From assembly GCA_035560005.1 (NCBI GenBank), contig DATMAN010000090.1:1-64000 (forward strand): a stretch of 64,000 bases of DNA, read 5' to 3'. The stretch's first letter is position 1. Each line of letters starts with the position of its first letter. Below, piece by piece: positions 46,863 through 51,693 of the stretch. The translations under genes were made by a program, and so were the position numbers. The notes below the pieces were generated by a model. It did no database searches, was not told the DNA's origin, and was given only the letters and a program-made list of their open reading frames with translations. The DNA is from Burkholderiales bacterium (lineage in GTDB: Bacteria > Pseudomonadota > Gammaproteobacteria > Burkholderiales > Eutrophovitaceae).

Positions 46863-49739
46863 TCAAGGACGCAGGACGACGGCGCGCAGGTTGCCGGTGA
46901 CGTTGAGGCTGTTCTGCAGCCGCTGGGCCTGCGAGCGCAGTTCGACGTGGACCCGACCGCTGACGTCCTGATCGGGCGCGATGTCGAAGCTGCCGCTGGC
47001 ATTGAGGATGCCGGCGGCGAGGCGGACGTTGCGGTACTGATAGCGGCCGTTGGCGATCAACAGCGACCCGGACAGCTCTTCGAACTTGGTCGACCCGCCC
47101 TGCGTACCCTGCCGTCCCACCTGCAGCGCCCGCACGAGGTCGACCCCGTCCAGGTTACCGCGGCGCACGAGGAAGCTCGTCTCTACGCGTGGCGCATCGA
47201 ACAGGATGGCCAGGCGATCGGATTGCAGCGCGAAGCGACCCTTGCCTTCGGCTTCTCCGGAGCTGCGCGCGTCCTTGGTGAACGCCGCGAGCAGCGACTC
47301 GGTCTGGATCCGGGCGAACTCGAAATCGCCATCGGCGCGCCAGCCACCGCTCCACGATACCCGGGCGCTGCCCTTGACCGCGCCGCCGTACAACCGGGCA
47401 TCGAATTCCGCGAGCTCAAGCGCTTCTGTGCTCGCCACACCTTTCGCCGCGAAATCCGTGAACTCCACCGGCGGACCGATCGGCGGCGTCCATCCCTTGC
47501 CCGAAATCGAGACGTCCATCCGGCCGTCTTTCGGCACGATCTCGACCGTGAGCTTGTTGTCCACGGTGGCGATGTCGGTCCTCGCGATGGTTCCGTCCGG
47601 CCTCAACTGCATGTGGACGTTGAGTGCAGGCAAGGCAATGTCGCGCATGCCCACCTTCGCGCCGCGCAATACCAGCCGACCGATCTGCACCGACTTGTCC
47701 GCCAGTGCCGCATCCAGCCAGCCGGGCAGACGCTGCAGGACTTGCTCCTCCATGTTGACGCCCTCGACCTCGACCTCCCGGACGACCTTGACCTCGCCAA
47801 ACAGCGAAGCGAGTTCTGGTGAGAGGCGCACCTTCGCGATCTTGACGTCCTGGGTGGTCCCTATGGCCACGCTTTCCAGGGTCAGATCGAATCCGGACAG
47901 GGCGGACATTCGCACCGACTGGATCGAGACCGGTTCCTTGATGTGCCCGGAGGCCAGTTTTTCGATCGCCGGAATGTAGCCGCTCAGCGGCATGAACTCG
48001 ATGACCGCCAGCGCCAGTCCGATCACGATCGCCAGGCCGATCGCCACGCCCTTGAAGCGGTCGATCGGCGAACGGACCTTGCCTTGTCTTTTCAGCGCCT
48101 CGAGCTCGCGGCGCTTGCGTTCGGCTTCCTCGGCTGCCTTGCGCTTGCGCGCCAGCTCTTCCTCCCGCGCCCGCCGGTCAGCCTCGATCCTGGCTTCCTC
48201 GGCGCGCCGCTTTTCCTCCGCTTCGCGCTTCTTGCGCTCCTCTTCTTCCTGGATCTTGCGCTGGTATTCCTCCTCGCGCCGGCGCTCGCGTGCCCGGCGC
48301 TCTTCTTCCTCGCGCTGCATGCGGGCGCGGATTTCGGCCTCTTCCGCCGCACGCCGCTCGGCCTCGAGCCGCGCCTCTTCTTCGCGCTGCGCACGCTCCA
48401 TGGCGAGCCGCGCCTGCTCGGCCTCGAACTGCTGGCGCGCCTCCTCTTCCGCGCGCTTGCGCAGAGCTTCCTGCTGGCGCTCGAACTCCGCCATGAAATC
48501 GACGCTTGCCGGTTCGCCCACCGGCGGCAGATCGATCTCTTGCACTTCCACGGCGGGGAACGGCACGTCTTCTTCCCGCCGCCTGCGCTCCTCTTCGTGC
48601 CGGCGGGCATCCTCCTCGGCCCGGCGACGATCTTCTTCTGCGCGACGGCGATCTTCTTCCCGGCGTCGCGCTTCCTCTTCCTCGCGGCGCCTGCGCTCCT
48701 CTTCTTCCCTGCGGCGTCGTTCCTCCTCTTCGCGCCGCCTGCGCTCTTCTTCTTCTCGGCGCAGGCGCTCCTCTTCCTCGCGGCGCTTGCGCTCTTCCTC
48801 TTCCCGCCTTCTGCGTTCCTCCTCTTCGCGCCGTTTGCGTTCTTCTTCCTCGCGGCGCATACGCTCTTCCTCCTCGCGTCTGCGTCGCTCCTCCTCTTCG
48901 CGCTTCCTGCGTTCTTCTTCCTCGCGGCGCTTGCGTTCGGCTTCTTCGCGCTGCTTGCGTGCCTGCTCCTCGCGCCTGCGGCGCTCCTCCTCTTCGCGCC
49001 GCCTGCGCTCTTCTTCCTCGCGGCGGCGGCGATCGTCCTCTTCCCGCTTCTTGCGCTCGACCTCGTCTCTCGCGGCCTGCTCGGCGGCCTCCCGCGCTTT
49101 GCGCTCGGCCTCTTCCTTGGCCTTCGCCTCCAGCGCCTTGCGTTCGGCTTCGAGGACCTTGGACAGATCGCGCGTGGTCCTGGCCATCTCTTCGGCTTGG
49201 CGCCGGGCCTTGCGTTCCGTTTCCTCCCGCATCTTGAGCGCGGCCGCCTCCTTCGCCTTGCGCTCGGCCTCGATCTTTGCCAGCCTGGCCGCTTCCTCGC
49301 GCGCGGCCTGCGCGGCGGCTTCCTTCTTCTTGCGCTCTTCTTCCTCCCGTTTGCGCCGGGCTTCGGCCTCGGCTCTCATGCGCTCGGCTTCCTCGCGCGC
49401 GCGCATCTCGGTCAGACTGCTCTGGTAGATCTTCTTGCCAGGAGGAAGCGACTGGGTGAAGTCCAGATCGTCGACGTAGGAGGTGTCGGCCGGCGGGACG
49501 GTGCTGATGCCGCCGGAGAGCGCGGCGAATTCCTTGATGTAGCCGCCCTCCTCAAGCTGCCGAATGCAGCGCGAGACTTCCGCGTCGGACAGCTTGGCTT
49601 TGACGGCGAGGTCGGCGACGCTGGATTTGCCGTCGATCAGCGTGAGGACCCGGACCAGCTCGCGCGAAAGCTTGCCGCCCTTGTTCTTGATCTCCAAGAC
49701 TCCTTTTCCGGTCTTGGAGTAGATCGTCTTCAGGTCCAT
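46863..49739 (-). CDS. AsmA-like membrane protein with long ER/K-type charged helix and N-terminal winged-helix domain
   Basis: This 958-residue protein has four parts. Residues 1-75 look like a winged helix (VLTLIDGKSSVADLAVKAKL, SDAEVSRCIRQLEEGGYIKE). Residues about 107-390 are almost purely E, R, K and A; inside, 240-358 repeats an 8-residue unit of the E4R4 type, matching the ER/K motif of single alpha-helices. A Pro-rich break (391-416, VPFPAVEVQ, DLPPVGEP) precedes a second charged helix (417-556). A single membrane helix lies at 564-585 (GVAIGLAIVIGLALAVIEF). The rest (to 958) has AsmA-like features in its C terminus (GNASGS-type strand repeats, LSGSLLIANGRYQYRN, SFDIAPDQDVSGRVHVELRS). 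Topology: cytoplasmic N terminus, periplasmic AsmA-like part. No exact relative is recalled; function unknown. Confidence 0.8.
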   Translation of the reverse strand: MDLKTIYSKTGKGVLEIKNKGGKLSRELVRVLTLIDGKSSVADLAVKAKLSDAEVSRCIRQLEEGGYIKEFAALSGGISTVPPADTSYVDDLDFTQSLPPGKKIYQSSLTEMRAREEAERMRAEAEARRKREEEERKKKEAAAQAAREEAARLAKIEAERKAKEAAALKMREETERKARRQAEEMARTTRDLSKVLEAERKALEAKAKEEAERKAREAAEQAARDEVERKKREEDDRRRREEEERRRREEEERRRREEQARKQREEAERKRREEEERRKREEEERRRREEEERMRREEEERKRREEEERRRREEEERKRREEEERLRREEEERRRREEEERRRREEEERRRREEEEARRREEDRRRAEEDRRRAEEDARRHEEERRRREEDVPFPAVEVQEIDLPPVGEPASVDFMAEFERQQEALRKRAEEEARQQFEAEQARLAMERAQREEEARLEAERRAAEEAEIRARMQREEEERRARERRREEEYQRKIQEEEERKKREAEEKRRAEEARIEADRRAREEELARKRKAAEEAERKRRELEALKRQGKVRSPIDRFKGVAIGLAIVIGLALAVIEFMPLSGYIPAIEKLASGHIKEPVSIQSVRMSALSGFDLTLESVAIGTTQDVKIAKVRLSPELASLFGEVKVVREVEVEGVNMEEQVLQRLPGWLDAALADKSVQIGRLVLRGAKVGMRDIALPALNVHMQLRPDGTIARTDIATVDNKLTVEIVPKDGRMDVSISGKGWTPPIGPPVEFTDFAAKGVASTEALELAEFDARLYGGAVKGSARVSWSGGWRADGDFEFARIQTESLLAAFTKDARSSGEAEGKGRFALQSDRLAILFDAPRVETSFLVRRGNLDGVDLVRALQVGRQGTQGGSTKFEELSGSLLIANGRYQYRNVRLAAGILNASGSFDIAPDQDVSGRVHVELRSQAQRLQNSLNVTGNLRAVVLRP
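48666..49022 (-). repeat. 24-base tandem repeat encoding E4R4-type units
   Basis: Within the AsmA-like gene the reverse strand repeats a 24-base unit with the sense REEEERRR (variants REEEERKR, REEEERMR, REEEERLR), about fifteen units. The nucleotide copies differ from each other at many third positions, so length variation between strains is possible but the units are not identical. Confidence 0.8.
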
Positions 49740-49955
49740 CTCGCCGTTAGTCGACTCCCGACTGGGATGCCCTCAATGGTTTGGCGGGCCGCGCTCGCGG
49801 GCGCGGTGAACAGCGGGGCCCTTTTCCCTCGACAGGCCGTGCGGGCAAAGCCCTCGAGGTTCGTGCAACGCGGCAGCGCTTCCCGGAACCGGACGGCCTA
49901 TTATAGGCTGCGGATGAGGCCGGCCGCGCAATTCCTGCCGTGGCCGGCCGCAAGA
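49740..49955. other. Gap between the AsmA-like gene and pntB; no gene
   Basis: The 216 bases hold no gene. A TATAAT on the reverse strand (49905 down to 49900) could serve the AsmA-like gene as a -10; no -35 is convincing. Confidence 0.35.
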
Positions 49956-51335
49956 TCAGATGGCCTTGAAGATGTCCTCGACGACCTTCTTGGCGTCGCC
50001 GAACACCATCATGGTCTTGTCCATGTAAAACAGGTCGTTGTCCAGGCCGGCGTAGCCCGTGGCCATCGAGCGCTTGACCACCAGCACGGTGCGCGCTTTG
50101 TGCACCTCCAGGATCGGCATGCCGTAAATCGGACTGCCCGGCACATTGGCGGCGGGATTGACCACGTCGTTGGCACCCAGCACCAGCACCACGTCGGTGG
50201 TCGAGAAGTCGTTGTTGATCTCCTCCATCTCGAACACCTGGTCGTAGGGGATCTCGGCCTCGGCCAGCAGAACGTTCATGTGCCCCGGCATGCGGCCGGC
50301 TACCGGGTGGATGGCGTAGCGCACGTTGACGCCCTTCTCGCGCAGCTTGTCCGCCATTTCCTTCACCGCGTGCTGCGCGCGCGCCACCGCCAGCCCGTAG
50401 CCCGGAACGATGATGACCGATTCGGCGTTGGACAGCAGGAAGGCGGCGTCTTCCGGGCTGCCGCTCTTGTAGTTCTTCTGCTTGCCGGCGTCCGCGCTCT
50501 CCGCGCCCGTGGCGCCGAAGCCGCCGAGAATCACGTTGAAGAACGAGCGGTTCATCGCCTTGCACATGATGTAGGACAGAATCGCGCCCGAGCTGCCTAC
50601 CAGCGAGCCGGAGATGATGAGCATCGTGTTGTTGAGCGAAAACCCGATGCCCGCCGCGGCCCAGCCGGAATAGCTGTTGAGCATCGAGATGACCACCGGC
50701 ATGTCGGCCCCACCGATGGGAATGATGATGAGCACACCCAGCACGAAGGCGATGGCGGTCATGACGACGAAGGGCAACCAGCTTTGCTCGACCACGAAGG
50801 CCACCCCGAACAGGATCATCACCACCGCGAGCGCGAGATTCAGCCAGTGCTGACCTTGGAAAACCACCGGCGCGGATCCGATCTTGCCGGAGAGCTTGCC
50901 GAAGGCGATCACCGAGCCGCTGAAAGTGATGGCGCCGACGAAGGTGCCGATGAACAGCTCCAGGCGGTTGCCGCGCGGAATCGTTCCTTCCGCCGTCACG
51001 ATGCCGTAGGCATCGGGGTCATGCACCGCGGCGATGGCGATCAGCACGGCGGCCAGGCCGACCAGCGAATGCATCGCCGCCACCAGCTCGGGCATCTGCG
51101 TCATCTGGATGCGGCGCGCCACGATCGCACCCACGGTGCCTCCCGCCGCAATCCCCAGCACGATAAGCAGCCAATTCGTGGTCAGCGTGAGCGTGGTCAG
51201 TACGGCGAGCGCCATGCCCACGATGCCGAACAGGTTGCCGCGGCGGGCTGTCGTCGGAGAACTCAACCCTTTGAGCGAAAGGATGAAGAACACCGAGGCG
51301 ACGAGGTAGGCGAGGGCGACTTGATTGGCGGACAT
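49956..51335 (-). CDS. pntB: NAD(P) transhydrogenase subunit beta
   Basis: The 459-residue protein has nine or so membrane segments followed by a soluble NADP-binding domain with VIIVPGYGLAVARAQHAVKE, PVAGRMPGHMNVLLAEA and GANDVVNPAA. It is the beta subunit of the proton-translocating transhydrogenase that transfers hydride between NADH and NADP+ using proton-motive force. It is the last gene of the three-gene set pntAA-pntAB-pntB. Confidence 0.93.
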   Translation of the reverse strand: MSANQVALAYLVASVFFILSLKGLSSPTTARRGNLFGIVGMALAVLTTLTLTTNWLLIVLGIAAGGTVGAIVARRIQMTQMPELVAAMHSLVGLAAVLIAIAAVHDPDAYGIVTAEGTIPRGNRLELFIGTFVGAITFSGSVIAFGKLSGKIGSAPVVFQGQHWLNLALAVVMILFGVAFVVEQSWLPFVVMTAIAFVLGVLIIIPIGGADMPVVISMLNSYSGWAAAGIGFSLNNTMLIISGSLVGSSGAILSYIMCKAMNRSFFNVILGGFGATGAESADAGKQKNYKSGSPEDAAFLLSNAESVIIVPGYGLAVARAQHAVKEMADKLREKGVNVRYAIHPVAGRMPGHMNVLLAEAEIPYDQVFEMEEINNDFSTTDVVLVLGANDVVNPAANVPGSPIYGMPILEVHKARTVLVVKRSMATGYAGLDNDLFYMDKTMMVFGDAKKVVEDIFKAI

Positions 51336-51375
51336 GGACGGTTCCTGGTGCCGGAGAGCGGAAGGACGGCGGCGC

Positions 51376-51693
51376 TCAGCGGCCCTTCTTGTCTCCTTTG
51401 GACTGTTTCGTCCTGAACATCTCCAGCATGCGCTGAGTGACAAGGAAGCCGCCGAACACGTTCACGCTCGCGAGCACCACCGCGGCAAAGCCCAGCGCGG
51501 TGCCCCAGTCGATCGGTTGCGGCCCGGCCGCAAGCATCGCGCCGACGATGATGATTCCCGAGATCGCGTTGGTCACCGACATCAGTGGCGTATGCAGCGC
51601 GGGAGTCACGTTCCACACCACGTGATAGCCGACGAAGATCGCCAGTACGAACACCGTCAGGTTCACCATGATCGGGTCGATCGCTTCAGTCAT
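51376..51693 (-). CDS. pntAB: NAD(P) transhydrogenase subunit alpha, membrane part
   Basis: The 105-residue protein has three hydrophobic segments and [20 protein letters not shown], the membrane part of the alpha subunit. In E. coli this is fused to the soluble part; here it is a separate gene, the split arrangement seen in other bacteria. It is 40 bases upstream of pntB. Confidence 0.93.

Follow-up and report, generated by a model that had tools for sequence, protein, structure and literature searches.

The minus-strand gene described here, which lies in the window (the whole stretch of 64,000 nucleotides that was analysed, from a Burkholderiales bacterium), starts with ATG in the ORF translation and encodes a protein of 958 amino acids that we read, with a probability of roughly one half, as an extra AsmA-superfamily protein that is regulated or positioned from the cytoplasm via a long helical tether. 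The protein is built of a winged-helix head, a long charged linker, a single transmembrane (TM) helix (best 19-mer with a mean hydropathy of 2.61) and an AsmA-like C-terminal domain (Table 1), and from the charge bias around the TM helix its N-terminus is predicted to be cytoplasmic. In a profile search at least 55 of the 200 genomes sampled from the bacterial order showed this domain order, most counts given here resting on public draft genomes and leaving out some of the nearest relatives (G003, G006). Architecture, conservation, AsmA homology, helix statistics, length variability and the fusions of the head to signalling domains were computed. The literature library that was searched yielded no paper linking an AsmA-like domain with a winged helix; the head family, the DLDFT motif, the cyclase variant and the conserved helices around an expandable core are new here.

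The sequence-only reading of this DNA had described a charged segment, a Pro-rich break, a second charged helix and a TM helix, and every part lies at the position that it had given. It had looked to a search for homologues by domain order for support, and this order is kept in 55 genomes. Against its reading it would have counted a frame broken in related genomes, a predicted coiled-coil dimer or a C-terminus unlike AsmA; only one break was found, in a single relative from the draft genome G009, and the other two were not observed. This locus (L049, G009:C46) and the window belong to one family; head and AsmA part are here in different frames with an additional TAG stop, and an assembly error or a pseudogene could account for this. 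On the opposite strand, an ORF of 1157 aa (47943-51416, +) opposes the charged region and pntB; it was rejected as a real gene because the domains and homologues sit on the minus strand, and it is a by-product of the Glu/Arg codon use.

Table 1. Features of the gene and of the encoded protein, with positions in the window.
Feature	Position	Strand	Basis
Whole gene	46863..49739	-	958 aa plus stop; 54 other genomes with matching architecture
N-terminal winged-helix head, residues 1-72	49524..49739	-	HTH_24, AF2, residue conservation
DDLDFT short linear motif, residues 90-95, in flexible segment after the head	49455..49472	-	motif count versus shuffles
First charged helix, approximately residues 107-215	49095..49421	-	gapless versus closest homologues
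E4R4 core, residues 240-358, single-alpha-helix-like	48666..49022	-	charge statistics; hypervariable length and sequence among homologues
Pro-rich, hydrophobic break, residues 391-416	48492..48569	-	composition; comparable break in most of the closest homologues
Juxtamembrane charged helix, residues 417-556, length constant	48072..48491	-	EF motif-TM spacing, alignment
Single TM helix, residues 565-583	47991..48047	-	hydropathy peak, AF2 helix
Periplasmic AsmA-superfamily domain, residues 584-958, ~20 beta strands	46866..47990	-	homology, AF2

The C-terminal domain is, judged by homology, a member of the AsmA superfamily. Pfam AsmA (PF05170) matches 20 of 24 homologues (best 1.8e-13), with further matches to YhdP (11) and DUF748 (9), the score of the window protein alone being under the Pfam cut-off for AsmA. 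Searched against PDB sequences, the family profile matched TamB (E 1.1e-5), and hhalign aligned the domain to the canonical AsmA of its own genome with an E of 4.5e-8 over 145 columns; the AsmA-like C-terminus claimed by the sequence-only reading is borne out by the PF05170 matches and by this alignment. The AF2 model (pLDDT 88, pTM 0.77) shows the TM helix, a further helix and ~20 strands. In a structure comparison (VIA-align) Vps13 (Z 7.2) and Atg2 (Z 7.1) were matched with their chorein-N region at the expected N-terminal part; porins tied with these chorein-N proteins, and similarity of fold does not by itself decide the matter. Foldseek of the model against the PDB returned nothing below E 0.001, and a plasmid search with the domain gave no match.

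In analogy to the AsmA superfamily (AsmA, TamB, YhdP, YdbH; PF05170, PF04357, PF13116, PF11739), the protein continues from one TM helix into a periplasmic beta-rich domain, and homology to AsmA, TamB and YhdP profiles is detectable. However, the members from E. coli and P. aeruginosa carry their TM helix at the N-terminus (PMC10900882), while here more than 560 cytoplasmic residues precede it. The genome already encodes TamB, a full-length AsmA, two frames of YhdP size and a short AsmA-domain paralogue with neither head nor rod (G000:C93:100032-101207, 29% identity), and the 958-aa protein is therefore an extra member. With ~375 aa, its AsmA domain probably does not reach across the periplasm. 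The short AsmA-like protein PA2708 of P. aeruginosa (361 aa) is likewise thought to be unable to span the periplasm and it is dispensable for growth (PMC10900882), so that transport over the whole periplasm is doubtful for the protein described here. PA2708 (PF05359), for which no cytoplasmic head or rod is reported, is likened to it by size and description.

In the core of the linker, E4R4-type 8-mers keep one register between residues 232/240 and ~351, as had been described from the sequence for 240-358. Within these 119 residues 112 (94%) are charged (57 E, 50 R, 5 K; net charge -2), two are large hydrophobics and none is Pro or Gly. The charge pattern is far beyond that of shuffled sequences, having a period of 8.02 with a power of 43.7, approximately fourfold the best value of 10.5 among 300 shuffles, and an excess of opposite over like pairs at i/i+4 of 0.90 (0.00 ± 0.09 in shuffles). 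Single alpha-helix (SAH, ER/K) domains such as those of myosin-6 and the KER of CAF-1 likewise consist of Glu/Arg/Lys repeats with opposite charges at i/i+4 and without a hydrophobic core, and the core shows both properties. A single helix is plausible because of this sharp 8-residue charge period and the absence of a hydrophobic heptad core. In contrast to the known SAH domains, the core contains far more Arg than Lys and is joined to a bacterial membrane protein, and linkers in the family reach 1201 aa, compared to ~200 in the longest myosin SAHs (PMC5378345).

The excess of Arg over Lys also bears on a different reading, in which the linker acts as an oligomerisation scaffold, Glu-Arg bridges or Ala-rich faces pairing the helices and thereby clustering AsmA domains. 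Designed Arg-rich helices (ER3) aggregated at neutral pH (PMC5347031), for which reason the Arg-rich core is not to be assumed a monomer, and the rods of most homologues are Ala-rich. The hydrophobic pattern argues against such pairing, since the heptad-range period is not significant in the juxtamembrane helix (best 0.058, compared to 0.074 for 95% of shuffles) nor in the first charged helix (0.065, compared to 0.094 in shuffles), and the core offers only its two hydrophobic residues. These values agree with the charged helix without coiled-coil core that had been predicted, and the scaffold is considered unlikely.

Upstream and downstream of the core the linker is conserved. In the clade of the window the first ~110 and the last ~147 linker residues can be aligned between genera with hardly a gap, unlike the middle: residues 91-210 share 60-77% identity with L032 without gaps, and the distance from the EF motif to the TM helix is 147 aa in the window protein, L032, L102 and L103 and 146 aa in L036. 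The Pro-rich break is found at the matching place in most of the closest homologues. The charged segment of residues 107-390 noted earlier is thus present but not uniform, its first ~110 residues forming an Ala-rich charged helix and the E4R4 part a variable core. Among 55 full-length members the segment from head to TM helix comprises 57-1201 aa and its length varies within genera (57, 706 and 730 aa in g62; 505-670 in g26; 1033-1201 in g9). As the flanks align and the middle and the lengths vary, what the family retains is a long, polar, helical linker of changing length and sequence. In a tree of the AsmA domain, obtained by a quick search with one support value, the short-linker member L082 stands beside a relative with 730 residues, ER-rich cores require at least three changes, and the cyclase form described below is one clade. 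The spacer can be dispensable in some cases, because the genus member L082 lacks nearly the whole linker and retains only 57 aa.

This variability, together with the near absence of the linker in L082, would also be expected if the E4R4 core were a mostly neutral low-complexity expansion by repeat duplication that is merely soluble and helical. Traces of such duplications are present in the DNA: synonymous identity is in excess at a lag of 32 codons (0.62, compared to 0.46 ± 0.05), and the core DNA holds a degenerate 96-nt tandem repeat with 78% match, which indicate that blocks of four units were duplicated in the past. However, seven REEEERRR units that are identical in the protein are encoded by seven different DNA sequences, their codon differences (4.4 of 8, compared to 4.2 expected) being equal to random synonymous choice. 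Furthermore, the repeated origin or change of ER-rich cores and the helix-compatible linkers kept by most members (mean Pro plus Gly content of 3.5% in the 44 linkers exceeding 300 aa) speak against neutrality, so that a mostly neutral origin appears quite unlikely.

The head matches Pfam HTH_24 above the cut-off (1.6e-5) and its AF2 model is a winged helix (pLDDT 82-89 over residues 11-70), in agreement with the winged helix proposed before. Near-invariant positions in AsmA-type heads are K9-T10-x-K12-G13, D36 and G37. In structure the head comes closest to the winged helix of NPRL2 in GATOR1 (Z 9.4), RPC39 and PriA, followed by Lrp and MarR proteins; a comparison with the two PqqD domains of the own genome was weak (hhalign probabilities of 20% and 1.5%). 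The head profile matches in 96 of 200 genomes of the order and in 18 of 273 other genomes of the class sample, where the matching frames are all short (90-337 aa). Within the order the same head is fused to Response_reg, cNMP_binding, TonB_C and Guanylate_cyc domains. Examples of fusions to cNMP-binding, TonB and receiver domains, in which the output domain is not AsmA, are L098:1754-2971, L100:1958-3070, L095:1689-2483, L085:2216-3082 and L099:2620-3495. Short head proteins (L093, L094), ~165-200 aa in length, carry a conserved helical tail at their end (CRKLIKLFIDDAKAEEFARRAHELL), and the protein L094 has no Pfam match.

Alternatively, the head might bind DNA and make the protein a membrane-tethered transcription factor or a nucleoid anchor on a long rod, as suggested by the fold and the HTH_24 match, by Lrp and MarR proteins among the structural neighbours, by the basic residues 1-24 (mean charge +3.2) and by the head-receiver fusions, which look like response regulators. 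The recognition helix alpha3 is, however, acidic rather than basic, with a mean net charge of -1.5 in 49 strong and -1.6 in 30 weak heads, which is an argument from charge only; the top structural matches are NPRL2, whose winged helix belongs to a protein complex (GATOR1), and RPC39; and the head is also joined to cyclase, cNMP-binding and TonB domains. DNA binding by the head, which had been left open beside protein binding, is accordingly improbable, and the acidic recognition helix and the fusion of relatives to signalling domains favour a head that would bind protein.

Next to the head, a motif of the type [LMF]D[FL]T is present within 90 residues past the head in 46 of 79 head-bearing frames, compared to ~0.13 expected from shuffles; these frames include copies of AsmA genes truncated at contig or locus ends and are counted as frames, not as independent genes. 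The DLDFT-type motif was found in the AsmA fusions and in two receiver fusions, and no report of it was found. Members from genus g40 have, instead of the long rod, a class III nucleotidyl cyclase domain between head and TM helix (PF00211, Guanylate_cyc, 1.3e-7 in L045). The metal-binding Asp motifs FLD(I/M)V and TGDG are kept in the five cyclase-form sequences (L045:5846-8035, L125, L130, L135, L137); domain and motifs are a property of the g40 variant and not of the window protein. The gene immediately upstream in the cyclase clade, encoded on the same strand, is relA (relA/spoT).

In the clade of the window the gene is flanked on one side by the mutL/pnt genes and on the other by a MocA-like nucleotidyltransferase, amiC and tsaE, these three being on the opposite strand. 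Among the neighbourhoods compared, no operon partner recurs throughout the family. The head-AsmA gene of family f22 is followed on the same strand by an MsbA-related ABC exporter (TIGR02204; 802 bits for L128). At both f22 loci (L082:3771-5501, L128:7019-8965) the exporter is on one side of the head-AsmA gene and a FecR-like gene on the other. A further conserved neighbour occurs near the head-AsmA gene in several families (L035:785-1771, L041, L099, L105, L106, L123), and the copy at L035:785-1771 has no Pfam or NCBIfam match. Scans for promoters, terminators, RNAs and tRNAs found nothing.

For the AsmA protein with a cytoplasmic tether we infer that it binds a partner and handles lipid, that its AsmA domain is regulated or positioned, and that a single-helix state exists, which could act together as follows. 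The TM helix would anchor a short AsmA-superfamily protein in the inner membrane, and its periplasmic beta-groove domain, by analogy to the superfamily, probably binds or passes lipid in an envelope task. The winged-helix head with the adjacent DLDFT motif may be a recruitment or signal-input module for a protein partner, not for DNA. The charged linker, two conserved helices flanking an expandable core that consists here of E4R4 repeats, may serve as a semi-flexible helical spacer that holds the head off the membrane and gives it reach to its partner, the exact length being immaterial. The sequence-only reading had proposed a rigid rod, more than 40 nm long if residues 107-390 were one helix; with the persistence length of ~15 nm described for SAHs (PMC5347031), 284 residues with a contour of 42.6 nm have a computed rms end-to-end distance of ~29 nm, and long helices are semi-flexible, which does not support a rigid rod of this length. 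Its ruler for a fixed distance has in its favour that a long stiff helix could exist in principle and would agree with the charge pattern, but it is hardly tenable and was rejected because of the linker lengths of 57-1201 aa and their spread even within g62, g26 and g9.

A transport of phospholipids to the outer membrane has been proposed for AsmA-superfamily proteins, and their regulation and placement, e.g., at the cell poles, are open questions (PMC12977461). From the protein family described here it would seem that some AsmA proteins are under control from inside the cell, or are positioned from there, and a common branch with a big cytoplasmic input module would provide a direct handle on AsmA regulation and placement. 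More tentatively, and with the odds rather against it, it might represent a large unnamed AsmA branch in which cytoplasmic signalling switches or places envelope lipid handling, the head and the DLDFT motif sensing a partner or second messenger and acting through an evolvable charged helix, with the cyclase-fused form being self-contained. Furthermore, the linkers of 57-1201 aa within one family constitute a natural series of very long charged helices and with this a test of such linkers in bacteria.
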